The notes below the pieces were generated by a model. It searched no databases and was not told the origin of the DNA. It saw only the letters and a list, made by a program, of their open reading frames with translations. A stretch of 35,751 bases of DNA. Source: a virus. Within the stretch, counting starts at the first letter, position 1. Each line of letters opens with the position of its first letter. The position numbers were made by a program, and so were the translations under genes. The stretch is from positions 1-35,751 of IMG/VR virus record IMGVR_UViG_3300027749_000021. One strand, given 5' to 3'. Positions 5,503 through 20,746 of this stretch are shown one piece after another.

Positions 5503-7316
5503 TATTTATTTATTACAATGTGAGCATTCCAAATATGTCTGCAACTTGGGCTATGTTCTCCATTAGGCATAGTCCAAAAACCGCCTCTCCTATCCCAAAC
5601 AGAATAACCTACAGCAGTTGATATGGATTGTATTTGTTGTCTTGTAAATACCTTACCACTTTCTACTAATTTTTTACAGAATAATCTTGTTCTTCCATTT
5701 GGTAATACTGCAGGTCCTGTTGCTTCAGGTGCTTTGTCATATGAATACATAATTTTAATAGATGGCAATGCAATTTTTTTTGCTACATTCCATAAATCAA
5801 AACTTGCAGCTATGATTTCTTGTGGTTCAAATTCGTCCTCAATAAATCTTGCTTTTTTAGTTTTTATTATTTCATAATTATTTCTAAATGTTCCTACTTC
5901 AATAAGCATATCAGCAACTTCTTCCTCAGTATATTCTTTTTCAAATTGAGCATCATCTTCAATGCCTAACAAACTTGCCACATCAGTATCATTTAAACCT
6001 AATCCTGTTTTTAATAATGCTGTTGCTGCTTGCTTTGTTAATTGCCCTTTTGAAAATTGTCTGATAATTCTCATTAATTGCTGGTGCTGCTTTGCCGATA
6101 AATTTTTAATATTATCGTTTACCATTTCTTGCTGTGCTGCTGGAGCAGTAGTAGCATTTACTGCCTTTGGATCTGATGGGGTAGATGTTATAGGATATTT
6201 TTCTGTATCTATTCCTAATTTATCATATAACCACGCTTTTGGGGCTATGGCAGTTATTGTTGCTGCATCCAATTGTAAACTAATTGGCTCTACATCTTGT
6301 AGTTTGAATTCCATTCCAAACAAATAACCAAGAACATTTTCAATTTGCTTTTGCTTAAAATTTACATAAGTGTTTTTGAAAATATCATAAGCATATTTCA
6401 ATTCATTACCACTTCCTAATTTGCCTGATTCCATTATCCCAAACAACATTGGAGATGTTATTTGATGACCAGCAAATATGTTTGATGTAATTAAATTATC
6501 AACAGCAGTAAAATCTTCCTTGCTTAAATCACTACTTCCTAAATCTTCTACAGTAGGTGCTTTTGTAGGATCATTATTAAAAGTAATAATAGTTTTTTTA
6601 CCATCACTTCCCCCAAATTTTACATTAAATCTTCGTTCAATTTTTTTCTTATCATCTTCACTCGGTTCCCCATTAAAGAAAGAAATCATTTTGCTTGCAC
6701 TAAATCCAGTCTTTGCATTACTAAGGGTTTGTTTGCTCACTTCAAAATCACTCTCTATATAGTTAATAGCAGGAATGTAATTAGGTAAAGGATATGTAAA
6801 ATCTCCTTGTCTATATTCTTTGAAAAAAAACACACCACTAACATTATTGCCTTTCACATATTTAGGCATTACTTTAACTTCTTCACGCCTATTTCTCCAA
6901 TCTTTTTTGTAATAGAATTGATCTTGGGCCATATTAACTCTTATGCTATTAAAGTCAATATGATATATTTCTGCAATTCTGCCAAGTGCATCAGGTATAA
7001 TTTGTAAATAATATCCACCAAATACTTCACAGTCTTTAATCATCTTAACTGCAATATCATCTATCCCCTCGCCTGCTCCATTACATTTGTTAATTAATAA
7101 ATCATTAACACCATTTGCTTTAAATCCATTCCCAAAAATGTAATTTACTTTCCCATTTATAATAGCATTATGCTTTGCACTTTTATTTGAAAGTAATAGT
7201 AAATAGTTAGGGTATAAATCATCCTCTCCAAATTGAACCCAAGGCTTACCTTTTACCTCTTTAAACTCAGGCAACTTACTATCTTCAAAATTTAATACTA
7301 TGAAATTATCTTGCAT
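5502..7316 (-). CDS. Portal protein with C-terminal MuF-like domain
   Basis: The protein has 604 residues. Residues 1-380 match a phage portal: N-terminal region with WVQFGEDDLYPNYL, central wing with KMIKDCEVFGGYYLQI, and clip/stem with ITSPMLFGIMESGKLGSGNE. An Ala/Gln-rich linker follows. The last 80 residues (about 525-604) carry RTRLFCKKL, a DRRGGFW turn and SCRHIWNAH. This Cys...CRH pattern is like the C-terminal part of MuF-type minor capsid proteins, so portal and MuF-like functions appear fused. The portal forms the 12-part ring through which DNA enters and leaves. It overlaps the upstream gene by 11 bases. It lies about 11 kb from the large terminase, which is unusual. Confidence 0.85.
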   Translation of the reverse strand: MQDNFIVLNFEDSKLPEFKEVKGKPWVQFGEDDLYPNYLLLLSNKSAKHNAIINGKVNYIFGNGFKANGVNDLLINKCNGAGEGIDDIAVKMIKDCEVFGGYYLQIIPDALGRIAEIYHIDFNSIRVNMAQDQFYYKKDWRNRREEVKVMPKYVKGNNVSGVFFFKEYRQGDFTYPLPNYIPAINYIESDFEVSKQTLSNAKTGFSASKMISFFNGEPSEDDKKKIERRFNVKFGGSDGKKTIITFNNDPTKAPTVEDLGSSDLSKEDFTAVDNLITSNIFAGHQITSPMLFGIMESGKLGSGNELKYAYDIFKNTYVNFKQKQIENVLGYLFGMEFKLQDVEPISLQLDAATITAIAPKAWLYDKLGIDTEKYPITSTPSDPKAVNATTAPAAQQEMVNDNIKNLSAKQHQQLMRIIRQFSKGQLTKQAATALLKTGLGLNDTDVASLLGIEDDAQFEKEYTEEEVADMLIEVGTFRNNYEIIKTKKARFIEDEFEPQEIIAASFDLWNVAKKIALPSIKIMYSYDKAPEATGPAVLPNGRTRLFCKKLVESGKVFTRQQIQSISTAVGYSVWDRRGGFWTMPNGEHSPSCRHIWNAHIVINK

Positions 7317-7677
7317 AAGTTATATATTCAATGTCAGGAGCATTTGTTTGATATAATGGTGTTACAGTTTCTTTTAACTCCATACGACCCACTTCAACTA
7401 TATTCAATCCTGTTGGATCCGTATTTGTATCATTATCTTGCTCATAAATGGTATAAGAATATTGTCCAACTTTAGTAATATAATTTGATGTATTTATTAA
7501 AAACTCATTATATCTTAAAGGGTATGGACTTAAATCACCTGGTGCAATAAAAGCAACTTGAACTTTAGTTGTTAAATGTTCAAATATGAATAAGTAGTAA
7601 GCGTTTGTTATAGTAGTCTTTTCAGTTACTGTAACTACCATTTTTTCCCCTGTACTATCTTTATGCAACAACAACAT
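7306..7677 (-). CDS. Conserved structural-region protein, beta-rich
   Basis: The product is 123 residues with alternating strands: VVTVTEKTTITNAYYLFIFE, then VGQYSYTIYEQ and VGRMELKE. I have seen similar short proteins with the pattern TEKTT-TNPYYLF next to portal genes of Bacteroidota phages, but no function is known to me. It opens the portal-neck-fibre block, directly after a strong terminator and 26 bases after a copy of the repeated late motif (7685-7711). It may be a decoration or connector protein. Confidence 0.6.
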   Translation of the reverse strand: MLLLHKDSTGEKMVVTVTEKTTITNAYYLFIFEHLTTKVQVAFIAPGDLSPYPLRYNEFLINTSNYITKVGQYSYTIYEQDNDTNTDPTGLNIVEVGRMELKETVTPLYQTNAPDIEYITYAR

Positions 7678-7684
7678 ATTTATA

Positions 7685-7711
7685 ATGTGGTGCTATGTTA
7701 ATATTTGCCAA
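7685..7711 (-). promoter_or_regulatory. Late-block motif, copy 1 (TGGCAAA-N13-CCACAT)
   Basis: On the minus strand, TGGCAAA (7710-7704) is followed by 13 bases, then CCACAT (7690-7685). The start codon of the next gene is 26 bases after TGGCAAA. Two further copies with the same spacing precede the genes at 10731 and 18179. It follows a terminator, so a promoter is needed here. It does not match the host-type TAnnTTTG box, so it may be phage specific. Confidence 0.5.
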
Positions 7712-7713
7712 AT

Positions 7714-7745
7714 AAAAAAGCAACACTGTTAAATGTTGCTTTTTT
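7714..7745 (-). terminator. Rho-independent terminator after tail tube gene
   Basis: A 12-bp perfect stem (AAAAAAGCAACA at 7714-7725 with TGTTGCTTTTTT at 7734-7745) has an 8-base loop and a T run on the minus strand. It lies 24 bases past the stop of the tail tube gene. Flanking A and T runs could let it work in both directions. Confidence 0.85.
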
Positions 7746-7769
7746 TGTAAAATGTATTTTATTTTAATA

Positions 7770-8291
7770 CTATGTTCCTGCTGTTTGTAATGCTGAAATT
7801 GTAGCACTATCAACTTCATAAGCTGGTACTAATTCCTCTCCTTTTAAATCAATTTCAAAACCATTTCTATCTCCTAATTTTGTTCCAGTCATAGCTTTAA
7901 CAGTTGAAACAACAAGGCTATTATTTAAACCATACAACCAACCTTTTCCATTTTGATCTACTACTACTGCAATCAATCTATTTGCACTCAATAAAAGCAA
8001 TTCATTTCTAACACTTGCTTGAAGTTTGTTAGCATAGAATTTTATAATTTGAGAAACAAACGAAGTTCCATTTTCTTCATTTACTGTAATAGTTTCTTCA
8101 GCCATTGCAGTTTGTTTAACTACATTATATTTTCTAAAAGCCTTACCTGTTGCTTTAGTGATTGAAGTGATGACACCAGCAGTTGGAGTAGGTGTAGTAA
8201 TGTTTGCAGCTTCAATTAAATAAACTGCTTTTACACCACCTTTGCTATCTATACAATCTAAATTAAGATCTTGTGTTAATGCACACGCCAT
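7770..8291 (-). CDS. Probable major tail tube protein
   Basis: The product is 173 residues and begins MACALTQDLNLDCIDSKGGV. Bacteroidota phages carry a family with this opening (Met-x-Cys-x-Leu...Asp-Cys-x-Asp-Ser-x-Gly-Gly) as an abundant structural protein, taken to be the tail tube. The rest alternates strands with a conserved-looking SVRNELLLLSANRLIAVVVD block and an Asn-Gly turn (NGKGWLYG). The gene stands alone between two strong terminators directly after the major capsid gene. Such isolation suits a protein needed in many copies. The tail tube role is inferred from family memory and context. Confidence 0.6.
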   Translation of the reverse strand: MACALTQDLNLDCIDSKGGVKAVYLIEAANITTPTPTAGVITSITKATGKAFRKYNVVKQTAMAEETITVNEENGTSFVSQIIKFYANKLQASVRNELLLLSANRLIAVVVDQNGKGWLYGLNNSLVVSTVKAMTGTKLGDRNGFEIDLKGEELVPAYEVDSATISALQTAGT

Positions 8292-8304
8292 TTTATTTCG
8301 TTTT

Positions 8305-8331
8305 AAAAAAGGGTGCTATTAAACACCCTTT
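8305..8331 (-). terminator. Rho-independent terminator after major capsid gene
   Basis: The stem AAAGGGTG (8308-8315) pairs with CACCCTTT (8324-8331) around an 8-base loop. A six-T run follows on the minus strand (8305-8310 read in reverse). It lies 13 bases after the capsid stop. The minus-strand loop, TTTAATAG, differs by one base from TTTAACAG in the next terminator (7714-7745). Confidence 0.85.
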
Positions 8332-8344
8332 CAGTTAATTAATT

Positions 8345-9541
8345 TTAAGCTAATTTGAAACTCACAACCTCATTAGGAAATGCTACTTGAACACCTAATT
8401 TGAACTCTGTAACAAAACGAACTTCATCAGCTTCTTTTGCATAAAATATTTCCCATTTATCTTCTTCACCCATTACATCACAACCCAAATACATATTGCT
8501 AATTCTCATTGCAAATAGTCTGTTTGTGCCATCTAATCCGTGAACTGCTGTAAGTGTATATTGAGTACCAGGGATTTTAATTTCTCCGCTTTTTTGTGCA
8601 TCATTTGTTGCTGTGTAAGCATAAAGATTTGCTTCAATTAATGAACCAATATATGCCTCATACACTTCCCATCCACAAAAAACAGTAATATCATCTTTAC
8701 CTTTTGTTTTTGCTGGTAATGCTTTCCAAATGCTTTTAACAATACCTCTTACATTGCTCTCGGTAATACCTGTTGCAACTAAAATAGGGTTTGCACTTCC
8801 TGAAGCAGTTTGAGCAGTTAAAGGGAAATTTTGATATGCAGCAGCCGTAATTGCAACTGCACCATTTGAAGCTAAAACAATTGTAGTATCATTTGTAATA
8901 CTTGCAACTGTTCCAATTAAAACACCAGCACTTGTATAAATTTTATCACCTACTGCAAACTCAGTTGTAAAATACGAACCTGAACCTGTAAATGTTGTTG
9001 AACTTGTAGTGCTTGTTGCTGTTCCACTTGCAACAAATGTATTAGCTACAGGCATTGTTTTAACAGCATCTAAAATTTTGTTTAATCCATCAAAACGTGC
9101 AAGATTTGCAGTACCACTTGCAGTGTCTCCTTGCCATAATGCAGTTTCTAATTGTTGAGCTATAACGCCAGCTTTTAAATTTGCATACACTTCTTCAAAT
9201 GGGATGCTATCAGGACGGCTTCCTGCTTGCATTTTCAATTGCAAATATTTACTTTCAAGAGTCTTAGGACAAAGACTTTCATTCACTTTTACTTTTCCTA
9301 TTGTTAAGGCTCTGCGAGTGAATGTAGTAGTTCCACTTGAACTGAAACCACAAGTACCTCCTGCTTGAAAAACTGCATCAGTATCAACAACGTTGATTTG
9401 CTCTGCACTTTTCACTTCGGTCATTACATTACCCTTACTTTGAATAAGGGATTGGGTTTTTGCATCAAACAAAGATTTTACAACCAAACTGTCTTGGTTA
9501 TCTTTGGTATAATTGGCTAATGCTGAAACATCAAAACTCAT
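8345..9541 (-). CDS. Major capsid protein with an inserted beta domain
   Basis: The protein has 398 residues and builds the head shell. The N-terminal half resembles capsid proteins of Bacteroidota long-tailed phages (GFSSSGTTTFTRRALTIGKV, KVNESLCPKTLESKYL, ETALWQGDT, RFDGLNKILDAV), expected to take the HK97 fold. Residues about 165-245 interrupt this with a Thr/Ser-rich stretch (TFTGSGSYFTTEFAVGDKIY, ITNDTTIVLAS). That pattern is typical of small surface beta domains found in phage proteins. The HK97-like core resumes near 260 (ESNVRGIVKSIWKALP). It follows the scaffold gene by 27 bases and is followed by its own terminator. Confidence 0.88.
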   Translation of the reverse strand: MSFDVSALANYTKDNQDSLVVKSLFDAKTQSLIQSKGNVMTEVKSAEQINVVDTDAVFQAGGTCGFSSSGTTTFTRRALTIGKVKVNESLCPKTLESKYLQLKMQAGSRPDSIPFEEVYANLKAGVIAQQLETALWQGDTASGTANLARFDGLNKILDAVKTMPVANTFVASGTATSTTSSTTFTGSGSYFTTEFAVGDKIYTSAGVLIGTVASITNDTTIVLASNGAVAITAAAYQNFPLTAQTASGSANPILVATGITESNVRGIVKSIWKALPAKTKGKDDITVFCGWEVYEAYIGSLIEANLYAYTATNDAQKSGEIKIPGTQYTLTAVHGLDGTNRLFAMRISNMYLGCDVMGEEDKWEIFYAKEADEVRFVTEFKLGVQVAFPNEVVSFKLA

Positions 9542-9568
9542 TTTATTTTAATTTAGATTGTTTAAAAA

Positions 9569-10120
9569 TTATTTTCTTAATTCCTTTACTGCTTTTGTAA
9601 TAGCTTCCATTCTTTCAGCTCTGCTTGCAGATTTATCACTTCTAAAAGATTGTGCTGGAGCTGCTGGAGCTGCTGTTGGTATTTTAGCAAGTTGTTCTAC
9701 AACACTTAATAATCCCTTAATTACTTCATCTTGCTTGCTAATTGTTTCTTGTGCAACTGCAAAAGATTGTTTATGTGCTGTAAAATCACTTTGCAATTTT
9801 TCAACAGCTCTCATATACTTTTGCATTTCTGCCTGTGGCTCTGATGCTTCTGCTGGTCCTGATTCAATTTCTGTAATTATTCCACCAACAGTAGTAATGT
9901 TTGTTCCATCACTCAATACATATTCTGCATCAGGAGCAGGTACACCACCAATTAAAACTTTTCCACCCACTTCCATTTTATCAACTGTAATAGCCGTTCC
10001 ATCTTGTAATGTAGCATCTACCATTTTAGCAGGTGCAGATGGAGCTACTGGTACTTCAGGAGTAGCTGGCATATCGTTAAACAACGCTTTAATTTTTAAT
10101 AATGTTTCTGTAACGTTCAT
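9569..10120 (-). CDS. Probable capsid scaffold protein
   Basis: The product is 183 residues. The N-terminal part is rich in Pro, Ala and Val. A small beta region follows (DGTAITVDKMEVGGKVLIGG, then EYVLSDGTNITTVGG). Residues about 95-150 form a helix or coiled coil (MRAVEKLQSDFTAHKQSF), ending in an Ala-rich linker and a basic tail (RAERMEAITKAVKELRK). A coiled coil with a basic end directly upstream of the capsid gene and after the protease gene fits a scaffold that guides head assembly and is then removed. No single motif proves it. Confidence 0.65.
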   Translation of the reverse strand: MNVTETLLKIKALFNDMPATPEVPVAPSAPAKMVDATLQDGTAITVDKMEVGGKVLIGGVPAPDAEYVLSDGTNITTVGGIITEIESGPAEASEPQAEMQKYMRAVEKLQSDFTAHKQSFAVAQETISKQDEVIKGLLSVVEQLAKIPTAAPAAPAQSFRSDKSASRAERMEAITKAVKELRK

Positions 10121-10137
10121 AATTTATATGTTTAAGA

Positions 10138-10731
10138 TTAAATATTTATGCCATTTATAATATTCTTTATTTTTTCAAATATCTCAATCTCACTTAGTGC
10201 TGTTTTTTTATAACTAAACAAACCCTCTACGCTAAACCCCTTAACCAATCCTTGCTTTATCATATCCCAAACTTTAGGATTATTTACTTTTGCACTAATA
10301 AACCAACTGCCATTTGCTGCATCCTCAAATCCATCCATTGGTTTTATACCTCTTGAACTATCTACAATAAAACTCTCAAACACACAAACACCATCAGCTT
10401 TCATTTCGGCATCGTGCATCAAATTAAAATTTTGATTAAAACCTTTAGCAAAAAATTTTTCTACTATTTGGAATATTGTAGGAGCATCAAACACAACATA
10501 ATACTCACCTAAATTTGCATCTCGTCTATATATAGGAACATCAGCCAACATTGCAGCACCACTTATAATATGCCTTTCCTCATCAATGGCAAACTGTAAT
10601 TTGTCTTTGAAAGTTAAAAAGTTTTTTTCTATTGCAGGCTTATCTACTAATGCAACATAATCCACCTGTAATTCACTATCAATAGTGGGGTCAATTTGTA
10701 ATTTATAAAGTGGCAGATTATTAAAGTCCAT
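10138..10731 (-). CDS. Prohead serine protease, XkdF-like
   Basis: The product is 197 residues. It has the pattern of the XkdF-type head maturation protease: DYVALVDKPAIEKNFLTF at the start, ISGAAMLADVPIYRR, YVVFDAPTIFQIVEKFF, NLMHD, GVCVFESFIVDSSRGI, NGSWFISAKVNNPKVW and VKGFSVEG. His106 (in NLMHD) and Ser167 (in GFSVEG) are the likely catalytic pair. The enzyme should cut the scaffold and capsid arms during maturation. It starts the head block, 26 bases after a copy of the late motif (10739-10765). Confidence 0.85.
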   Translation of the reverse strand: MDFNNLPLYKLQIDPTIDSELQVDYVALVDKPAIEKNFLTFKDKLQFAIDEERHIISGAAMLADVPIYRRDANLGEYYVVFDAPTIFQIVEKFFAKGFNQNFNLMHDAEMKADGVCVFESFIVDSSRGIKPMDGFEDAANGSWFISAKVNNPKVWDMIKQGLVKGFSVEGLFSYKKTALSEIEIFEKIKNIINGINI

Positions 10732-10738
10732 ACTCAGT

Positions 10739-10765
10739 ATGTATGGTATTGCTAATATTTGCCAT
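10739..10765 (-). promoter_or_regulatory. Late-block motif, copy 2 (TGGCAAA-N13-ATACAT)
   Basis: Minus-strand TGGCAAA (10764-10758) is followed by 13 bases and ATACAT (10744-10739). The protease start is 26 bases downstream of TGGCAAA. It shares TGGCAAATATTA with copy 1. It fills most of the 34-base gap between the tape measure and the head block. Confidence 0.5.
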
Positions 10766-12979
10766 TTATATTCTTGCTGCTCTTGTTATACGCTCTAAAC
10801 GCTCTTTATTGCTTGTTATATCACTGTCTAATACATACGTTTTACCAACTGCTGCATTACCAAATGCATTAATACTATTTTGATTTAATTGAGTTGTTTG
10901 TACTTTTGGTTGCACTGGTGCAGATGGTATAGATGCAGATGGAGAAGAACCACCACCACTTGCTTGACCAGGAACATCAACAGACAATATTTTTTGAACA
11001 TTCGCAATACCAGCAGCAACAGCAAGCCCAGCATTTATTGGGGCTAATACAGGACCAACAACAGGAATACCAACAGTAGCCTCATAAGCTTTTTGTGCAG
11101 ATGTGAATGTTGAAATAGTTGCCGATGCAGCAGACAATATTTTTCCTGCTACAGTAGCTTTTCCTAATAAATTACTTGCATTATCCAATGTTGAAGCAAT
11201 GCTATCAGCTGCATCAATCTTTGCTTTCATTTCAGCTTTTGCTAATTGTTTTCTTGCCTCAGTTTGTGCAGCAATATCTTCAGTATATTTCTGCTCAATA
11301 TCTGCTTTTTTTGCAGCAGTTAATCCAGCTTCACTTATCTCTCTCCTATATTGAGCTTTTATTAGTTCTGTTTTTTGGTCAAGTAGTTTTGCTTGTTGTG
11401 ATAAATTCTTTTTTGCTTGTGATAATTCAAAAGCAATTTTTTTAAAACTTAATGCTTCACTTGATTTTATATCTTCATCATCAAATTTTTTCTCTAATGC
11501 TTTTTTTGCAAGGCGTTGCTGTTCATCAATCTGCTTTTCTATTTGTGCAAGCTGGGCAGCATTGTCTTTATATTTCTCTTTTGCTTGTTTTAATTTAGCC
11601 TCATAAGATACTTCAAGTTGCACACGCTCTCTTTCTCTTGCATCAGTAATGCCAGCTAATCTTGTTTCAAGTGCAACTTGATTAAGTTCTAATTGGAATT
11701 GCTTTTCCTTTGCTTTAGACTCATCATCAAATTTCTTTTGTAATGATTCACGTTTTTGATTTGCTAAAACAAGTGCATTTGTATTTAATAAATCTGCTTG
11801 TTTTTGAGTTAGTTTCTTTTCTTCAACAGCAAGTCTATTTGCTCTTAGTTCATCTTGATAAGCATTCTCAATAACTTTAAATTCTTTTAGTTTAGCATCA
11901 GTTATTGCAGCAAGTTCAATCTCTTGTTTTTGCTTTAAATCTTTTAATTCAAACTCTCTTAGACTTTGTAAATCAGCTTTTCTTTTTTCGGCAGCAGCTT
12001 TTGCTTCTTCGGTTTCTTTTGCCTTTTCCTGCTTATCTAAATTTCTAATTACTTTATTTGTTCTAACTCCCTCAAGTGCATTTTCTTTTTCAGTATTATT
12101 TATTTCAATTTGCAATTCTGCAATTTCATCAGCGTGCTTTTTCTCCCCCTCTCTCTCCATTTTAAACTGCTCAATTTTTAAAGCAGCCTTTTCTTTAGTC
12201 CGTGCTAAATCTTCAGCAGCATTTTTCATTTGATCATCACGCAATTCTTTGGCTATTTTCTTGCGTTCAGCAATACTTACTGATTCATCGTTCAATTGCT
12301 CACGCAATAAAGCAAGCCTTTTTTCACGTTCACTTTTATCTACTTTATCTTCACGTTCAGCTTTCTTAATTTCTTGAAGCCTCTTAGTGATGGCAGCTGT
12401 TCTGTTATATACTTTTTCTATTTCATCACCAACGCCACTAACAGCAGCTTTGGCATCTGCAATTGCTCCTTTAAAATCGCCACTAAAGAATTTTATTACT
12501 GCATTGCCTAATGCGAAAACTCTATCAATAACAACCTGAACAGCTGCTTTAATTCCGCTAAATACTTGTTCAAATTTCTTTGCTCCAGCACTAGTAGATG
12601 TAAATGCTTCATAAAGGAATGTAAGCACTAAAACAATTCCTGTAAGTATTAAAATTAATGGGTTTGCTGCCAATGCTTTTAACTGTGTGCCAAAAGATAT
12701 TGCCCCACTTTCTGCTGTTTTTAATCCTGGTACTAAACCTTGGATTTTATCTTTTAATATCCCAAACCCTGTATTACTATCCTTGTTTGTATTATTCAAC
12801 TCGTTTTGTGCAGCAGTCAATTTTTTATATGCTGCAACTTGCTCATCACTACCAGCTTTTGCTTGCTTAAATTCAGTAGATAGGTTTTTAATATTATCTT
12901 TGAGTAATAGTGTTTGTTTAATTGCTGCATCACTATCAACTGTAATCTTGGCTCCTATATTTACATTTGTTTCTGCCAT
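10766..12979 (-). CDS. Tail tape measure protein
   Basis: The protein has 737 residues. A long coiled-coil body (about 190-600) is rich in Lys, Glu, Ala and Gln. A hydrophobic stretch at 105-126 (ANPLILILTGIVLVLTFLYE) may help DNA cross the membrane. Near the C terminus is a Gly/Ala-rich hydrophobic region (TVGIPVVGPVLAPINAGLAV), followed by a Ser/Pro linker. These are standard marks of tape measure proteins, which fix tail length and are ejected with DNA. At roughly 1.5 angstrom per residue the tail would be near 110 nm, which is an inference. It comes after the baseplate genes, not before them as in most phages. Confidence 0.85.
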   Translation of the reverse strand: MAETNVNIGAKITVDSDAAIKQTLLLKDNIKNLSTEFKQAKAGSDEQVAAYKKLTAAQNELNNTNKDSNTGFGILKDKIQGLVPGLKTAESGAISFGTQLKALAANPLILILTGIVLVLTFLYEAFTSTSAGAKKFEQVFSGIKAAVQVVIDRVFALGNAVIKFFSGDFKGAIADAKAAVSGVGDEIEKVYNRTAAITKRLQEIKKAEREDKVDKSEREKRLALLREQLNDESVSIAERKKIAKELRDDQMKNAAEDLARTKEKAALKIEQFKMEREGEKKHADEIAELQIEINNTEKENALEGVRTNKVIRNLDKQEKAKETEEAKAAAEKRKADLQSLREFELKDLKQKQEIELAAITDAKLKEFKVIENAYQDELRANRLAVEEKKLTQKQADLLNTNALVLANQKRESLQKKFDDESKAKEKQFQLELNQVALETRLAGITDARERERVQLEVSYEAKLKQAKEKYKDNAAQLAQIEKQIDEQQRLAKKALEKKFDDEDIKSSEALSFKKIAFELSQAKKNLSQQAKLLDQKTELIKAQYRREISEAGLTAAKKADIEQKYTEDIAAQTEARKQLAKAEMKAKIDAADSIASTLDNASNLLGKATVAGKILSAASATISTFTSAQKAYEATVGIPVVGPVLAPINAGLAVAAGIANVQKILSVDVPGQASGGGSSPSASIPSAPVQPKVQTTQLNQNSINAFGNAAVGKTYVLDSDITSNKERLERITRAARI

Positions 12980-12981
12980 AA

Positions 12982-15363
12982 CTAATAATTTGTGTTAATC
13001 ACTTTTAATAAAATTGCCTTACAAGTATCTTCATTGGTTACATTGTAATCCTCAATCTTGTTAAGCCTAAATAGAGAACCATTTATATTAATAAACTTGC
13101 TAAAATCTAAGTTGAAAATATCTTTTGTGTTTAATCTAACAGTAACAGTAAGCATCTTGCTATCCTTATCTACTATTTCTGCCATATATGGACTCCAATA
13201 AACATTGAATTGATTAACATTTAAAGCTCCTGCTGTTAATACAAAAAACAATTCTTTAGGAGTTCCAAAGTTCAAATCATTTGTAGGTACATCAGGATCA
13301 TCAAAATGACCTGCATATGGATAATCTGTATATGAACCTAAAACTGTTGTTCCATTAGAATCAAGTATATCCCAACTTGTTACTCCTGTTACTTTCTTTG
13401 CTTGTAATATTCTAATATTGCTATCCGTGGTTTCTTCTACTGGAGATGCATCTGAACCAGTTCTTTTAAAAATACTACTATATATTTTTTCTTCTCCTTG
13501 ATAACCTATTAGGGGTGTGGGACTAAATATTAATTCAATCTTTTTTGTTTCATTTGCGAACTCAAATTGACTATCATATATATATGAACCATAAGTTTGG
13601 AAATATCTTTTTTCATACAAGTCATTCCAGAAATCACTGTCTTTTTTAAAATTAAATTCGTAATAACGAGCATTCAATTCACTCATTGGAGTTATTTTAA
13701 TTGACTTGCTTATATCTAATTTTTGGGTCCAATCAATTGCATTCAAATAACTAGTATCAAAAAAATCTACATATGGTTTTATAATAACGTGATTGTCTTT
13801 AAATCTATCCTCATAAACATATAAATTAAACAGTTTTAATATACTGCTAATAAAGTTTTTTTGCAATATATTTTGAGGAAGTATATCATTTGCTTTTACA
13901 TTTTGTCCTAAAACTACTGATGCATATATCTGTCCTGTTCCGCTTAATGTTAAACTTTGAGAATTGATAGTGAAATAACATCCAGCACTTGCACCACCAA
14001 TTTGACCATAAACGGCAACAACATCGCTTGGATTAATAGTAATACTTGTAAGTACAATTGTTCCGCTAATTATTCCTGTAGTAGTTGCTGTAATAATTGA
14101 AGCTGTTATAGGCACTCCATTTATTGCTACATAAAATCTAACACCATATGGTGAACCACCTAAAGTTGATACATTGATATTATATGCCCAAGTAAATGTT
14201 CCAGTTATTGCAGATGTTCCTCCATAAGTAAATAAAGCATTTGGAATGGTTCCATAAGAACTTGCAGCAAATGAACCAAGTAGTGTTAGTGTGTTGAATC
14301 TTATTGCTGATATAGGGTGTCTTGTTCCACCTGCTCCACCTACTATTTCTAAATGATAAGTTAATCCACCTGTATCACTAACATTTAATTGATAAGCACT
14401 TTTAACTGCTAATTCTTTAAATGTATGAGGGATGATTAGCTTTTTAAATCTTGTAGTATTAAACAAATCGCAATCATATGTATATCCACTTAATGCAAAT
14501 ATTTTGTCTATAAATTCTTTAACAAAGAATGCAGGTCTAAATGTTCCATATTTCCAACTATGTTTTCCTGCAACTGTATGGCTTGAATTACGACCATATG
14601 TTCCATAATCAATTAATGGATAATAGTAACCATATTTATATTTGTCTTTAGCTGTAATTACACCACTACAGTTTTCCCCATAAAAAGTAATGTTATTAAA
14701 TAGTATTGTTGTTTCACCACTTCCACTATCATAACTACTACTACTAACGACATAAGTTCCATTATTATGTGGGGTCCCAGTAATTACAATTACATCATTT
14801 AATTTTAATATTGAGAAATCATATGAGTAAACAATGATAACGTTATTCAAAAATGTCAATTCTCCTACTCCAGCTGTGTGAACTATGTCTTGTAAAATAT
14901 CTTTGCTATTAACAATATTGGCAAGATTGTATGTGTGGTCAAATTCGCTAAAATCCAAATCTTCTAATTTCAAGTTTCCCATTTTTGCGACCATACCACC
15001 TAATTCACCAAAAACACAAACCTCATATTCTACTATTCCATTATTAATAATTATTTCAAGCAATCTCAATGTACCTTTAAATATCTGTATGTTGTCTTGT
15101 AAGATGATAGCCTTTGCACCCCTTGCTGCATTAAAATCATATTTTACATTTGGGTTAGCTGGGTCTGCATTATTAGCTATATTGAAATCGAATATTGAAC
15201 CAAATAAAATATTATTATTAGCAGTACCAGGCATTACAATAGTTTTGCTAAAAGTTGTATTTCTTGCAGCAAAATCCTTGATGTCATCGATAGTAAAAGT
15301 TAGCATTGTTGATATGCTATCTACAATATCTGCTCTGTAATTTTCAATATACAACTCTATCAT
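12982..15363 (-). CDS. Tail hub or baseplate protein (tail-associated)
   Basis: The protein has 793 residues. The start (MIELYIENYRADIVDSISTM, then TTFSKTIVMPGTANNNILFG and GSIFDFNIA) matches a large family in Bacteroidota phages taken to be tail hub or tail-tip proteins. A Gly/Ser/Thr-rich beta region at about 330-490 looks like an inserted lectin or jelly-roll type domain that could touch the host surface. The C-terminal part returns to the hub-like pattern (KDIFNLDFSKFININGSLFR). It is coupled by TAATG to the gene before it and is 2 bases from the tape measure gene. Confidence 0.65.
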   Translation of the reverse strand: MIELYIENYRADIVDSISTMLTFTIDDIKDFAARNTTFSKTIVMPGTANNNILFGSIFDFNIANNADPANPNVKYDFNAARGAKAIILQDNIQIFKGTLRLLEIIINNGIVEYEVCVFGELGGMVAKMGNLKLEDLDFSEFDHTYNLANIVNSKDILQDIVHTAGVGELTFLNNVIIVYSYDFSILKLNDVIVITGTPHNNGTYVVSSSSYDSGSGETTILFNNITFYGENCSGVITAKDKYKYGYYYPLIDYGTYGRNSSHTVAGKHSWKYGTFRPAFFVKEFIDKIFALSGYTYDCDLFNTTRFKKLIIPHTFKELAVKSAYQLNVSDTGGLTYHLEIVGGAGGTRHPISAIRFNTLTLLGSFAASSYGTIPNALFTYGGTSAITGTFTWAYNINVSTLGGSPYGVRFYVAINGVPITASIITATTTGIISGTIVLTSITINPSDVVAVYGQIGGASAGCYFTINSQSLTLSGTGQIYASVVLGQNVKANDILPQNILQKNFISSILKLFNLYVYEDRFKDNHVIIKPYVDFFDTSYLNAIDWTQKLDISKSIKITPMSELNARYYEFNFKKDSDFWNDLYEKRYFQTYGSYIYDSQFEFANETKKIELIFSPTPLIGYQGEEKIYSSIFKRTGSDASPVEETTDSNIRILQAKKVTGVTSWDILDSNGTTVLGSYTDYPYAGHFDDPDVPTNDLNFGTPKELFFVLTAGALNVNQFNVYWSPYMAEIVDKDSKMLTVTVRLNTKDIFNLDFSKFININGSLFRLNKIEDYNVTNEDTCKAILLKVINTNY

Positions 15364-16541
15364 TATCTGTATTGTGTGTTTAACTTAGGAGAAAATTCAA
15401 ACTCAATAGAAAGATTAGAAACTTTATTGCTATTGCTTAAATAATTATTTACTTCATAATCTGTTGTAGTTATTGTAATTGGCACTAAATACCCTGCATC
15501 ATCAAAATAAATAATTGGAGATAGTATTAAATCTTTCAACCATATATGTTCTTCATCTGTTAAGTTTTCGGTATTTATTTTTATCTTTTCAGCATAGCTT
15601 ACTGCAAATGTTGTTGCCCCATCATACATTACATTATTTGAATTGCATAAAGACATCATACCACTGCTATCAATTCTATATTGTTGTTGTTGGTATTGCT
15701 TACGCTCAAATGTTAAACTTTTTCTCGAAACCTTTCTAAAATCAAAACTTTCAAAACCTCCATATTGGTTCATAAAATGCAAGCAGTAAGGAGTATATTT
15801 AGCTTCACAAACTACATTCATCCTATATACATAACCATTAATTGAAATAGTGTAATAATAAACACTGCTATTAATTTGATATGTAAAAAATGAATTGCAT
15901 CCAATAGGCGAAATATCTAAAATCAATAATTTGTTTGCAGGTATTGTTAAACTCTTTGTTTCTGTAGTTATTAATGTATTGGATGAATTATATGAATTAA
16001 TAATTATTGATGTTGTTGTTGATGATGAATTGTTGAAATAATTAATAAAACTTCTATAACCACCAAACAAAACACTATTAATATAAGGTCTATTCGTTAA
16101 TACTTTGGATGTTGAATTTAATATTGTTTCAGAAGATGTTAGCCTGCCATTATAATGATTGTAGTAAGCAACTTCACTTGAATCTGTATGTGCAGTATAT
16201 TCTACCCCTCCATATTCTTCTCTAAATTTACATTGAACTTTTAAGAACCATTCATTTTCACCAAATGATTGTGCTAAAAACATATTATTTACAGGGGAAA
16301 ATTCAAAGGATATATAGTTTCTTACACTTCGTGAAATATTAAATATTCCCCTACTATTTGCAGGATTTGGAAATGTTTTTAATACAGCAATTTTAACACC
16401 ACCAACATAAATATCACAAATGTATTTATAGTTTGGATATGTTACAGGGTCAGTTGCTTTAACACTTTCATAAGCTGTGTAAATTAAATCTCCATTTAAA
16501 CTACTATAAGCTGCTGGAGTATCATTTATTGTCATTGCCAT
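15363..16541 (-). CDS. Probable distal tail or baseplate protein
   Basis: The product is 392 residues and mainly beta. It opens with a domain like those in other Bacteroidota phage tail genes (YKYICDIYVGGVKIAVLKTF, then RGIFNISRSVRNYISFEF). A Ser/Thr/Tyr-rich middle follows (IIINSYNSSNTLITTETKSL), and it ends with DEEHIWLKDLILSPIIYFDD and an EFEFSPKLN tail. The gene lies between tail completion genes and the hub protein. A second possible start is Met3, at 16535. It overlaps the upstream gene by 20 bases. The role is inferred from position and family memory. Confidence 0.55.
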   Translation of the reverse strand: MAMTINDTPAAYSSLNGDLIYTAYESVKATDPVTYPNYKYICDIYVGGVKIAVLKTFPNPANSRGIFNISRSVRNYISFEFSPVNNMFLAQSFGENEWFLKVQCKFREEYGGVEYTAHTDSSEVAYYNHYNGRLTSSETILNSTSKVLTNRPYINSVLFGGYRSFINYFNNSSSTTTSIIINSYNSSNTLITTETKSLTIPANKLLILDISPIGCNSFFTYQINSSVYYYTISINGYVYRMNVVCEAKYTPYCLHFMNQYGGFESFDFRKVSRKSLTFERKQYQQQQYRIDSSGMMSLCNSNNVMYDGATTFAVSYAEKIKINTENLTDEEHIWLKDLILSPIIYFDDAGYLVPITITTTDYEVNNYLSNSNKVSNLSIEFEFSPKLNTQYR

Positions 16542-16824
16542 ATAATTTCATTGCTTTATCCATCACGTTATTATAATAAGTTTCTACACCCTCTATTCCT
16601 TTATTTTTATATGCATCTTTTAACTGTTGATGATGTTCAACAGCTCTCAATGCTGGCATTGGATATTCATAAACTTTATCCTTTTCAAACTTTCCAAATT
16701 TTTCCTTTAGTGGTGTTAGGTTTAATTCCCATCCATAAAACTTTTCAGGGTAAGTGGTCCACTCAAAAATTAATGGTAAACTTTTGGCTACTTCTTCTAA
16801 CCTTGATGAAATATGTTTTTTCAT
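16522..16824 (-). CDS. Small tail-region protein, function unknown
   Basis: The product is 100 residues, charged, with aromatic clusters (FEWTTYPEKFYGWELN) and helical parts (ALRAVEHHQQLKDAYKNK). There is no signal or membrane segment. It lies one base after the gp10-like gene and overlaps the next gene by 20 bases, so it is part of the tail operon. I do not recognise a family. Confidence 0.6.
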   Translation of the reverse strand: MKKHISSRLEEVAKSLPLIFEWTTYPEKFYGWELNLTPLKEKFGKFEKDKVYEYPMPALRAVEHHQQLKDAYKNKGIEGVETYYNNVMDKAMKLYGNDNK

Positions 16825-16825
16825 A

Positions 16826-17482
16826 TTAGTTGCTTAAATAATTTACAATATCTATTTTTAATGATTTACTTAATTTATCAAGTGCTAAATCTTTTACTTG
16901 CGTTTCTGCATCAGTCCAAAAATGTGTAGCTTTCAATCCTTTTTTTCTTACACTTCGTGAAATAGCTATTGCAGTTGAAAGTGAAGCATCTGTTATTCTT
17001 GATTGTTTATGTTCTCTTTTGCTTATTTGATGTCCGCTTTTCTTGCTTGTGTTTCTGCTTTGCAAGTGTTGTTGTATAACCCATTTACGAATAGCATCAA
17101 CCATTTTACTTTCTTTCTTCCCACTTTTACCTGAGTAGTTTTGAAACTTATATGGGCTACCTTGAGAATTTTGCCAACCATTTACACCTTTATCAATGAA
17201 CTTATAATAATCTGCAACATTTATTTCAAGCGTATATAAAGAACCCAACACTTTTATTTCAAGTGGTTTTATACTATCTCCTAAAAACCCACTTGCAACC
17301 CTATCTGAATTATTTAAGTTCTCATTTGCTTTTTTAACAAATTCGGCACCTATGTATGTAAGTGCATCCACAATATTGTCAAGTTTGAGTACAGGTATTT
17401 TATTTTGAGCATTATAGATTAGTAAATCCAAAAACCCACCATCACCTGTAACTGATGATTGACCCTCGCTAATTGTTGGCAT
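16826..17482 (-). CDS. Tail completion protein, HK97 gp10-like
   Basis: The product is 218 residues. The central part has the pattern of gp10-like minor tail or head-tail joining proteins: a helix with AEFVKKANENLNNSDRVASG, a strand block SLYTLEINVADYYKFIDKGV, a Gly/Ser loop, and MVDAIRKWVIQQHL. The C-terminal half is basic (KKSGHQISKREHKQ). Such proteins close the tail end that joins the head. It overlaps the gene before it by 14 bases. Confidence 0.6.
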   Translation of the reverse strand: MPTISEGQSSVTGDGGFLDLLIYNAQNKIPVLKLDNIVDALTYIGAEFVKKANENLNNSDRVASGFLGDSIKPLEIKVLGSLYTLEINVADYYKFIDKGVNGWQNSQGSPYKFQNYSGKSGKKESKMVDAIRKWVIQQHLQSRNTSKKSGHQISKREHKQSRITDASLSTAIAISRSVRKKGLKATHFWTDAETQVKDLALDKLSKSLKIDIVNYLSN

Positions 17483-18179
17483 ACTGTTTTTTTAATTGTT
17501 CTTCTTCATATAACCCTTTACTTTTTAAATATGCTAAAGCATTTAGAGCTTGTCTTACTGGCAAGTTAAATGCTTGTTCTAATGTTATTCCCTCATGTTC
17601 CTTTATCAACGTTGCACTATATATCCAGCCATAATATTTATTAAATGGATGAATGCTATCAACATTATCATCTACGATACCACTGTCAAATAAACCTTTG
17701 TAATTTTCATTGAATGATTGTAATGCATCAAGTAATGTTTTAATTGAACCTAAAACATTTGTTATTGGCTGCTTTAAAAAGTAGTTACTAATCTTAGAAT
17801 GATTCTTGCTATCATTTTTAAAGAATAAAGGAGCTGCAATTGATGCAAGGATATTGTGTGCTTTTTGTGTGCTGTCTTGCTGAATAAAATAGGATAATTC
17901 AACATATTGCCCAAATCTTATTGAAGCAATATCATAGTTAAGTTTATATATTCCAAACCTATTTTTTTGTTTTATATTTATTTCAGAAGTAAATATGTTA
18001 TTTACACTATTTATCAACCTTTTAAGTTTTGTAGTGCTTATTCTGCCAAGTTGATAATCTGTTTTATCATATAGAATTGAAATAATGAATAGTAGTTTAT
18101 CAGCCTCATCAAGTTCTTCATCAGCATTAATTATACTGATTTGCTGAAACTGTTGTAATGTAATGTTCTTCCAATTCAT
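17469..18179 (-). CDS. Tail-region protein, possible tail assembly chaperone
   Basis: The product is 236 residues, helical, with no membrane segment. The end (FNKYYGWIYSATLIKEHEGI, then VRQALNALAYLKSKGLYEEE) resembles tail assembly chaperones of other long-tailed phages. Chaperones often use a ribosomal frameshift near their end. Here seven A bases lie close to the 3' end, but joining the next frame would need a +1 or -2 shift and an in-frame stop is near, so I do not claim one. It opens the tail block, 27 bases after a late-motif copy (18188-18214). Confidence 0.45.
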   Translation of the reverse strand: MNWKNITLQQFQQISIINADEELDEADKLLFIISILYDKTDYQLGRISTTKLKRLINSVNNIFTSEINIKQKNRFGIYKLNYDIASIRFGQYVELSYFIQQDSTQKAHNILASIAAPLFFKNDSKNHSKISNYFLKQPITNVLGSIKTLLDALQSFNENYKGLFDSGIVDDNVDSIHPFNKYYGWIYSATLIKEHEGITLEQAFNLPVRQALNALAYLKSKGLYEEEQLKKQYANN

Positions 18180-18187
18180 TACATTAT

Positions 18188-18214
18188 ATGTGGCAGTAGT
18201 TTATATTTTGCCAA
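18188..18214 (-). promoter_or_regulatory. Late-block motif, copy 3 (TGGCAAA-N13-CCACAT)
   Basis: Minus-strand TGGCAAA (18213-18207) is followed by 13 bases and CCACAT (18193-18188). The start codon of the tail-block gene is 27 bases after TGGCAAA. It occupies the 38-base gap after the large terminase. The first half reads TTGGCAAA, as in copy 1. Confidence 0.5.
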
Positions 18215-18217
18215 CCA

Positions 18218-19423
18218 TTAAATTATAGAGTAAACACCTGTGCCTGCATTTTTATATTTATGCACCGCTAAGGCTAATGCACAAACACAGTCATCGTGCA
18301 ATCCGTTAGGTGCAGAATATCTAACACCACTTCTAGTATATTCAAACTCAAAGTTTTCTAATTCATCCGTAATAATACCACTTGGAAATGTTATCTCTCG
18401 TTTTTGTATTTTTAGAGCTAACCCCTCCATCATTTGCTGCTTTGATGTTGAAGTAAATCTCATCAACTCAACATCTTTAAACCTTGCAACTTCTTCGCCT
18501 ATTGGATCACCAACGCCTGTACTATCAATACAAATAGGTTTATTTTCTAAATCTTTTAATTTTTGTATTGTTTGCCTCCAATCTCCCTGCCACCTATCGA
18601 AATAGCAAACATTGCAATTCTTATCTAATCCAATAACAACAGTATAATCAAATGACTTTGCCAAATCCACACCATAACATTGTACTGGCATCTGCGACAT
18701 AGGAAATGTACATTGTGAAATGTGAGCAAGTCCAAATGGATTTGCACCATCATCACTTGGCTCTGCTAAATATAATTCTCTAAAAACATTCTCAGGTAAA
18801 TCTTTTTTAGCATCTTCAATTTCTTCTATAAAATCTCGGCCATCCTTTGTTTTCATTCCAGCAGCAGCAGCATCATAAGCTGTTATCTTAAAGTATGCAT
18901 AATCATCTAACCCTTGCTTTGCCTTTTGTCCTAATAAATAACCCCAATTTTTTTTCCCTCGAACATTACCAATAAATTTTATTTTACCACGTGTAGATGT
19001 GATAGTAGAACGTAAAGCAAACCAAGCTCCCTCTCTTGCTCTGGTGAACTCGTCAAACACAGCAGCATAGACATCATCTCCATATAAACTATCAGGGTTC
19101 TCACCTGTTTTAAATTCTATCTTTCCTCCAGTAATTAATGTGATTGTTCTATTGGTATCATTAGACTTAAATAAGTCTTTATTTGTTATTTGCACTTTCA
19201 TTCTATCATAGGCTATCTTGGCTTGTCCTATTGATGGAGCAATCCACCACACACTTTGATTTGCCTTGCATTGCAAAGCCTGTTCAAATAACCATATAAT
19301 GTGTGATGCAGTTTTACCTACTTTTGTTGATGCTTCAGTAACAGTATAACGTGCAGGGCAATCAATTATATCTATTTGGTAGCCGTATAAATACGGGCGT
19401 TTATAATTGATTTGTTGCACCAT
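18218..19423 (-). CDS. terL: Terminase large subunit
   Basis: The protein has 401 residues and is the DNA packaging motor. The ATPase half has Walker A STKVGKT (32-38) and Walker B AAVFDEF with Asp124 and Glu125. The linker FIGNVRGKKNWGY follows. The nuclease half has the acidic residues Asp253 and Asp259 (YGVDLAKSFDYTVV), Asp300 (CIDSTGVGD) and Asp377/Asp378 (GLHDDCV), which would bind metal and cut concatemers. The length is slightly short but complete. The small subunit lies upstream with four small genes between, which is uncommon. Confidence 0.95.
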   Translation of the reverse strand: MVQQINYKRPYLYGYQIDIIDCPARYTVTEASTKVGKTASHIIWLFEQALQCKANQSVWWIAPSIGQAKIAYDRMKVQITNKDLFKSNDTNRTITLITGGKIEFKTGENPDSLYGDDVYAAVFDEFTRAREGAWFALRSTITSTRGKIKFIGNVRGKKNWGYLLGQKAKQGLDDYAYFKITAYDAAAAGMKTKDGRDFIEEIEDAKKDLPENVFRELYLAEPSDDGANPFGLAHISQCTFPMSQMPVQCYGVDLAKSFDYTVVIGLDKNCNVCYFDRWQGDWRQTIQKLKDLENKPICIDSTGVGDPIGEEVARFKDVELMRFTSTSKQQMMEGLALKIQKREITFPSGIITDELENFEFEYTRSGVRYSAPNGLHDDCVCALALAVHKYKNAGTGVYSII

Positions 19424-20042: not shown

Positions 20043-20264
20043 TTATAAATATTTTTTAATTAAAGATGTTAATACTATTGATGTAACCATTGCGAGGCAC
20101 ATCAAAGGGATAGTATATAAATCCAATTTATGATATAATGCGAGGCAACACCATCCACTTAAACAAGTGGCACAATTGAAAGGTTTGCCATTTGGCAATG
20201 GTATAGGCTTAACTTCAACTAATACAAAAGCTACACTAAACGATAGTAAAATTATAAACCACAT
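20043..20264 (-). CDS. Small membrane protein with PFNCATCLSGW motif
   Basis: The product is 73 residues. It has an N-terminal membrane segment (MWFIILLSFSVAFVLVEVK), a conserved-looking KPFNCATCLSGWCC loop and a second membrane segment (IPLMCLAMVTSIVLTSLI). I have seen the PFNC..CL..W pattern in many small Bacteroidota phage proteins, but the function is unknown to me. The loop cysteines may bind metal or form disulphides. It overlaps the sigma-like gene by 13 bases. Confidence 0.65.
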   Translation of the reverse strand: MWFIILLSFSVAFVLVEVKPIPLPNGKPFNCATCLSGWCCLALYHKLDLYTIPLMCLAMVTSIVLTSLIKKYL

Positions 20265-20746
20265 ATTACATTATGCTTTAATTGTTTCTTTGCTTTTTCT
20301 ACAGCATTAGCAACACTTCTGATAGCTATTCCTGTTTTCTCACTTACTGACTTATATGTTCCAAGTTCAACATATAACTCAAGCATATGTTTATTATACC
20401 AATATATGTTTTGCATTTCCATTTCTAATTTTGGCAGCAAATCCACTTCTCTATCATCAGTAATATCTTCATCAAAATCATTTGTCAATATTTCTGTTTG
20501 CCTCCTATTTACTCTATGAAATTTATCTTGTGTAAAGTGAACAAGGTTAAACATAACTTTCACAATGTAGTTTCTTAGTTTATCTTGCTGATGAAGCTCT
20601 ATAATAAAATTCTCATCTTTTTCAAATAATAATAAAAAAACATGCTGCTTCAAGTCATCCCTTATATCGCTGTCAATTTTTAACAAACATTCTGCTATTT
20701 CATTGCTGGTATAGATATTTGTTAAAATTGATTTAGCGTTCATCAT
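20252..20746 (-). CDS. Sigma-70-like small protein (possible late regulator)
   Basis: The product is 164 residues. The first half resembles sigma region 2: DIRDDLKQHVFLLLFEKDE, then LRNYIVKVMFNLVHFTQDK and a basic end RVNRRQ. Residues 129-157 form a helix-turn-helix like sigma region 4: GTYKSVSEKTGIAIRSVANA, then VEKAKKQLK. It starts with two Met codons (20746 and 20743) overlapping the small terminase stop. A small sigma-like protein among late genes could direct RNA polymerase to the repeated late motif, but this is an inference. A DNA-binding packaging accessory role is possible. Confidence 0.6.
   Translation of the reverse strand: MMNAKSILTNIYTSNEIAECLLKIDSDIRDDLKQHVFLLLFEKDENFIIELHQQDKLRNYIVKVMFNLVHFTQDKFHRVNRRQTEILTNDFDEDITDDREVDLLPKLEMEMQNIYWYNKHMLELYVELGTYKSVSEKTGIAIRSVANAVEKAKKQLKHNVICGL

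Follow-up and report, generated by a model that had tools for sequence, protein, structure and literature searches.

Probable late promoters in a Bacteroidota phage of temperate type, with a phage-encoded ECF-like sigma factor as their candidate reader

A two-box element stands directly before the late gene blocks of a temperate-type Bacteroidota phage. It is probably a set of late promoters read by a phage ECF-like sigma factor, with transcription starting at or near the start codon. The phage is an IMG/VR virus record (IMGVR_UViG_3300027749_000021), and the whole stretch analysed, 35,751 nucleotides long, is called "the window" here. PHROG matches near the element are to terL, tape measure, protease and portal, and farther along the window to an integrase/invertase-like recombinase and a CI-like repressor, the presence of which makes the phage temperate in type. 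The motif, its architecture, its recurrence, its sharing within genomes and the sigma-like gene can all be read in the sequences themselves.

The following mechanism is proposed. The phage sigma factor (encoded at 20746-20252) would act on host RNA polymerase and bind box A, at about -33, and box B, at about -11. Its gene sits in a cluster upstream of terL, and this cluster opens with a gene that may have a host-type -7 box. Transcription would then begin at the start codon of each block's first gene, or about 2 nt from it, giving leaderless late mRNAs, although one gene of the four would carry a leader of 7-19 nt in many of the relatives. The spelling of box A would be particular to each phage lineage and would track its own sigma factor. 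In this scheme we infer the binding of the sigma factor to the boxes, the late timing and the exact start site.

Four copies of the element in one phage

The window holds three exact copies of TGGCAAA-N15-ACAT, all of them on the minus strand, against 0.14 copies expected, and none of 100 dinucleotide shuffles contains three or more. Taken alone, this shuffle figure flatters the motif, since the pattern was picked post hoc; independent support comes from the relatives. TGGCAAA by itself is not enriched (17 seen, 12.8 expected). Copy 1 (7685-7710, with box A TGGCAAA at 7710-7704) precedes the pre-portal/portal block, whose first gene (7306-7677, minus strand, 123 aa) begins at ATG 7677, a start codon kept in the relatives L001 and L002. 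Copy 2 (10739-10764) precedes the head maturation protease gene (10138-10731, minus strand; ATG 10731). Copy 3 (18188-18213) lies between the stop codon of the terminase large subunit gene, terL (18218-19423, minus strand), and the first tail-side gene (17469-18179, minus strand; ATG 18179), which encodes 236 aa and has no PHROG match. The initial annotation had listed these three copies, and they were indeed found exactly, although each of its upper coordinates was one too high. Its list was also incomplete, as a scan allowing up to two mismatches yielded a fourth copy, TGGCATA-N15-ACAT, with one mismatch, at 10153-10128 on the minus strand. This copy 4 precedes a gene (9569-10120, minus strand) that adjoins the protease gene in the capsid region, between protease and major capsid. 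The distance from the first base of TGGCAAA to the ATG is 33 nt at 7677, 33 nt at 10731 and 34 nt at 18179, and TGGCATA at 10153 likewise lies 33 nt upstream of ATG 10120. The claim that each of the three copies opens a block holds: the tail-side genes follow terL, the protease and capsid genes follow the tape measure, and a small gene plus portal follow a terminator. A degenerate pattern of the window allowing three mismatches gave nothing useful, and Rfam and tRNA scans of the sequence had no match. A further one-mismatch site lies at 20190-20165 on the minus strand, between the sigma gene and terL; the ATG 36 nt downstream of it opens no listed ORF.

The host promoter is outlined in published work as a -33/-7 pair of boxes, TTTG and TAnnTTTG (PMC7366714, PMC6847099). 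The motif had been described as unlike these boxes, and this is borne out: TAnnTTTG is absent from the 45 nt upstream of all four late ATGs, so that none of them has the mark of a primary-sigma promoter. The same box is under-represented in the window as a whole (46 matches against 71.5 expected, with no fewer than 46 in any of 100 shuffles). One match, TAACTTTG, is intergenic at 21617-21610 on the minus strand, just before ATG 21599 of the first gene in the cluster that holds the sigma gene. It may be a chance match. The order that it suggests, host sigma first and phage sigma second, is a lead only, because matches to TAnnTTTG arise by chance.

The element at orthologous genes

The relatives are loci L001-L124, collected by protease and capsid searches, a few contigs occurring twice; one of the loci is a prophage contig of Chitinophaga polysaccharea. 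Since the exact pattern TGGCAAA-N15-ACAT was not found in the first two relatives, they were compared by position and not by letters. Orthologs were excluded if their start lay more than five codons from that of the window homologue or if fewer than 60 nt were available upstream. This kept, with the window included, 94 of 118 protease, 92 of 92 pre-portal, 53 of 62 gene 9569 and 13 of 47 first-tail-gene orthologs, and after dereplication 51, 46, 34 and 13, respectively. When the orthologous starts are aligned, a two-box element is seen in the same place in other letters, for example TGACACAAA-N10-TGATATTTAT right before the ATG. Absence from close relatives had been named beforehand as a result that would speak against the motif; with this check run, the element is present at the orthologous genes, and it is the literal TGGCAAA letters that change. 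The element thus stands before virion gene blocks and at conserved orthologous positions in relatives, as is expected of a phage late promoter.

A two-box model fitted to the 144 dereplicated upstreams of the four genes has box A TGACACAAA, a spacer of 10 or 11 and box B TGCTATTTAT. Scores of at least 8 are reached by 63 of the 144 (pre-portal gene 29/46, protease 14/51, first tail gene 5/13, gene 9569 15/34) against 0 of 432 shuffled training sequences, counts which describe rather than prove because the model was fitted on the sequences that it scores. Upstreams of nine other late genes, the major capsid gene among them, never score this high (0/279). No recognisable element (score below 8) precedes the protease in 37 of 51 upstreams or the first tail gene in 8 of 13. 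The window's own boxes have diverged, and its four copies therefore score only 4.8, 0.6, 7.4 and 4.5 on this general model; a window-wide scan at 10 or more returns none of them and one unrelated site. A scan of both strands of 75 loci, with near-identical loci kept in the counts, gives 78 hits of at least 10 versus 9 in a block shuffle, and 73 of the 78 are on the late strand. An ATG opening an ORF of at least 50 codons lies 28-59 nt downstream of 62 of these hits, as compared with 2753 of 30000 random positions, and 50 of those 62 ATGs are 32-35 nt downstream. In the collection of phage records, a near-DNA search had no match, nor did the major capsid protein or the sigma protein of a relative, so that no cultured relative was found there; matches to terL were all below 60% identity.

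Promoter or translation leader

The initial annotation had offered two options, a phage-specific late promoter and a conserved translation leader. In the latter, an RNA element before the start codon would recruit ribosomes in hosts without Shine-Dalgarno sites. The hosts of this phylum are indeed described as lacking Shine-Dalgarno sequences (PMC6847099), and the distance to the ATG is nearly fixed at three of the four genes. At gene 9569, however, this distance varies from 33 to 53 nt, reaching 41-53 nt with an unchanged box-to-box spacing of 10-11, and L002 has an extended element at 4144 with no ATG in the usual position. The element is also missing before the nine other late genes. A further argument comes from the intrinsic terminator directly upstream of copy 1 (7714-7745, minus strand; -14 kcal/mol, z -5.4), which a simple terminator scan missed and folding detected. 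Upstreams of the pre-portal gene, the window's included, have a terminator-like stem in 32 of 46 cases versus 1 of 46 when shuffled, and 30 of these 32 stems end 36-45 nt upstream of the ATG. A promoter located before such a terminator would be cut off, so the start would be confined to the few tens of bases occupied by the element, and no space is left for another promoter. The fixed spacing of the boxes with a floating ATG, the element at 4144 and the adjoining terminator together favour a promoter, and we consider a translation leader very improbable. Of the two options, the phage-specific late promoter is thus the one favoured, also by the genome-specific spellings and the sigma-like protein described below.

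Two further readings make the element either coding or meaningless. Three window copies contain TTG/ATG-GCA-AAN, which starts a short frame (MANI.., MANI.. and MAKY..), as leader peptides would. These frames are broken in relatives, by an in-frame stop after four codons in L001 and by the want of a start codon there in most, and this reading, whose probability is negligible, was dropped. Chance resemblance, or a duplicated sequence without function, might be argued from an AT-rich genome and a pattern defined post hoc, but the orthologous sites are conserved and the copies have spellings in common, which makes it highly improbable. Apart from the late promoters themselves, the major capsid gene is separated from the gene after it by a terminator-like hairpin followed by a T run (8305-8331, minus strand), and a similar hairpin is found in 27 of 64 upstreams of the gene that follows major capsid. 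Judging by this placement, expression beyond the capsid gene may be throttled.

Box A spellings and the candidate sigma factor

Since the motif that seeded the general model came from the same data, the sharing of spellings across genes is the cleaner test. Box A varies across phages and is common to the copies inside one phage: it is TGACCA at three genes of L037, TGGGAC at three of L075, TGGAAC/CGGAAC at three of L064, and TCGGAC/CCGGAC/GCGGAC in L092. The agreement has exceptions: in L009, L015 and L051, the tail-gene copy is AGAAAC and the other copies are TGGCA or AGGCA. Between different genes of one genome, box A identity averages 6.22 of 9 (86 pairs, 38 genomes), versus 4.80 expected with permuted labels, and none of 2000 permutations reaches the former value. 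Among representatives less than 62% identical (8 genomes, 24 pairs), the within-genome figure is 6.58 versus 4.49 permuted, and box A identity for the same gene across these different genomes is only 4.37. Sites scoring below 0 were excluded from this test; the window's protease copy, whose best site at spacer 10-11 scored below 0, was dropped only from the spacer 7 list. A box A shared within a phage and different between phages is what is expected from a common reader that itself differs between phages.

The proposed reader is a divergent ECF-like sigma factor of 164 aa, encoded upstream of terL (20252-20746, minus strand). By sequence, its assignment is weak: it matches NCBIfam SigZ with an E-value of 9e-5, colinear over 25-160, at 22.5 bits against a cut-off of 212, and the ECF superfamily model at E 0.011, colinear and far under the curated cut-off. 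It reaches no curated family cut-off, and TIGR02937 is above its cut-off in none of 38 records. With such scores the protein is termed ECF-like and is not filed as an ECF member. The predicted fold is that of sigma2 plus sigma4. The AF2 model (mean pLDDT 79.8, pTM 0.42) combines an N-terminal domain of helices with a helix-turn-helix at the C terminus, with helices at 4-81 and 103-162 and a low-confidence linker at 74-100. In length and content, it agrees with the ECF architecture, which has regions 2 and 4 only in about 160-200 aa. Foldseek against the PDB ranks ECF sigma factors on top (best E 3.5e-3, probability 1.00), with no E-value below 0.001 and whole-chain TM-scores of about 0.3-0.4; region 4 alone superposes on 5fgm at 1.9 Å and on 2o8x at 1.3 Å. 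Homologues are present in 34 of the 38 records, window included, and the four without one are contigs of 11-19 kb. The window protein by itself (P0001) had no phmmer match among the ORFs of the first 124 loci, which mostly end before the sigma gene; it retrieved no related locus when used alone, and had unrelated weak matches only among PDB sequences.

Across 17 genomes, box A similarity follows the identity of the recognition helix (r 0.70). With region 2 partialled out, the correlation is 0.34 (p 0.006), and since the reverse partial is 0.28, it is not separable from shared descent, which explains part of it. L050, L069, L070 and L074, which have no called pre-portal box, and L056, which is absent from the alignment, were left out. 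Among close relatives, a Y at the S[IV]xN position of the recognition helix accompanies a TGA-type box A, and an H or A there accompanies a TGG-type one, in few independent cases. The weak sequence assignment of the sigma factor and this confounding by descent lend something to another explanation, according to which the late promoters are read by the RNA polymerase of the host, aided by an activator or antiterminator from the phage, and the sigma-like gene does something else. Box B of the relatives (TATTTAT) also resembles part of the host TAnnTTTG. Yet TAnnTTTG itself is found at none of the four window sites, box A depends on the lineage as a dedicated reader would require, and the sigma-like protein recurs in nearly all records with a predicted sigma2 plus sigma4 fold. 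We therefore hold a reading by host polymerase without the phage sigma factor to be unlikely.

Predicted start sites

The host -7 box has its first T at -12 (PMC6847099). When the +1 of the phage sites is taken from this geometry, sites scoring at least 8 in dereplicated genomes have predicted leaders of -2 to +2 nt at the pre-portal gene (26 of 26), of -1 to +2 nt at the protease gene (13 of 13) and of -1 to 0 nt at the first tail gene (5 of 5). At gene 9569, the prediction is -1 in 2 of 16 sites and 7-19 nt in 14 of 16. The small negative values mean that the host rule errs by one or two bases in these phages. A point against the model is that, with box A at -33, the nominal start lands 1 nt inside the ATG. 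Host geometry thus predicts that at three of the four genes transcription starts no more than 2 nt from the ATG, close enough for the late mRNAs to count as leaderless. In the L196 clade (L196, L181, L193, L192, L182 and L179), an early ATG after terL, apparently the one that the first tail gene uses, is inside box B (GAAACAAA...ATGATATTTAT). This counts against a leaderless start, as a transcript starting downstream would exclude that ATG; in this clade, either a downstream start is used or the element is not a leaderless promoter. Leaderless messages are uncommon in this phylum: about 3.7% of 5' UTRs are below 10 nt in B. thetaiotaomicron (PMC7366714), and the figure for F. psychrophilum is 5.5% (PMC9723704). 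If the prediction is true, leaderless capsid and tail mRNAs would show how such messages are translated efficiently without Shine-Dalgarno sites, and would let the phage favour its own messages.

Relation to known systems

Phage sigma factors that read late promoters have long been known, among them T4 gp55 and SPO1 gp28. There, as here, a phage encodes a sigma-like protein and has dedicated promoters before structural genes; the present case differs by an ECF-like protein, a two-box promoter, a box A that diverges by phage, a predicted leaderless start and a Bacteroidota host. ECF (group 4) sigma factors share the plan of region 2 plus region 4 and provide the nearest solved structures to the 164-aa protein, but the latter falls below every curated cut-off. 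The ECF motif outlined for F. psychrophilum has a CGT-type -10 box (PMC9723704), which the phage promoters lack. The late promoters of AR9 and phiKZ likewise have a short phage-specific consensus unlike that of the host but are read by phage multisubunit RNA polymerases, and AR9 leaders measure 26-491 nt (PMC5312081). The host -33/-7 promoter has a similar geometry to the -33/-11 of the phage, whose four sites are without TAnnTTTG. Among the papers searched, judged from titles and abstract openings, no description of such a system was found. What sets the present case apart is the candidate ECF-like reader, the lineage-specific box A and the predicted leaderless start; phage sigma factors and late promoters themselves are known.

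A broader proposition, to which we give an even chance, is that leaderless late mRNAs are made with private ECF-like sigma factors throughout a large group of uncultured Bacteroidota phages, from promoters whose effective end is the start codon. Box A and the sigma factor would have co-diverged into some ten spellings, a natural set of sigma-promoter pairs that are orthogonal to one another, along with a late switch from leadered host translation to leaderless phage translation. The box A spellings and their sigma factors are material for deciphering how the -33 box is recognised and for building orthogonal expression tools for Bacteroidota.

Prophages in the Chitinophaga family

In the genome of Chitinophaga polysaccharea strain 1209, the sigma profile has a single match in 7.6 Mb (E 1.5e-25), just upstream of the prophage locus L046. 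This prophage carries a variant of its own, AACAGAAC...GATATATAC, in three copies, and two of these lie 32 nt upstream of the ATGs of ORFs of 729 and 114 codons. A prophage search of 294 Chitinophaga-family genomes gave five with a capsid match, and the sigma profile was run on two capsid-matching genomes and eight others. It matches on the capsid contig in G066 (E 2.9e-8) and has no match in G134; three genomes without a capsid match have weak matches to single host-type genes (E 5e-5 to 1e-3). Two copies in the Chitinophaga prophage (L218, G038:C6:65422 and 73323) have one and the same sequence from box A as far as the opening codons of two different genes, an arrangement that suggests recent promoter copying or conversion.
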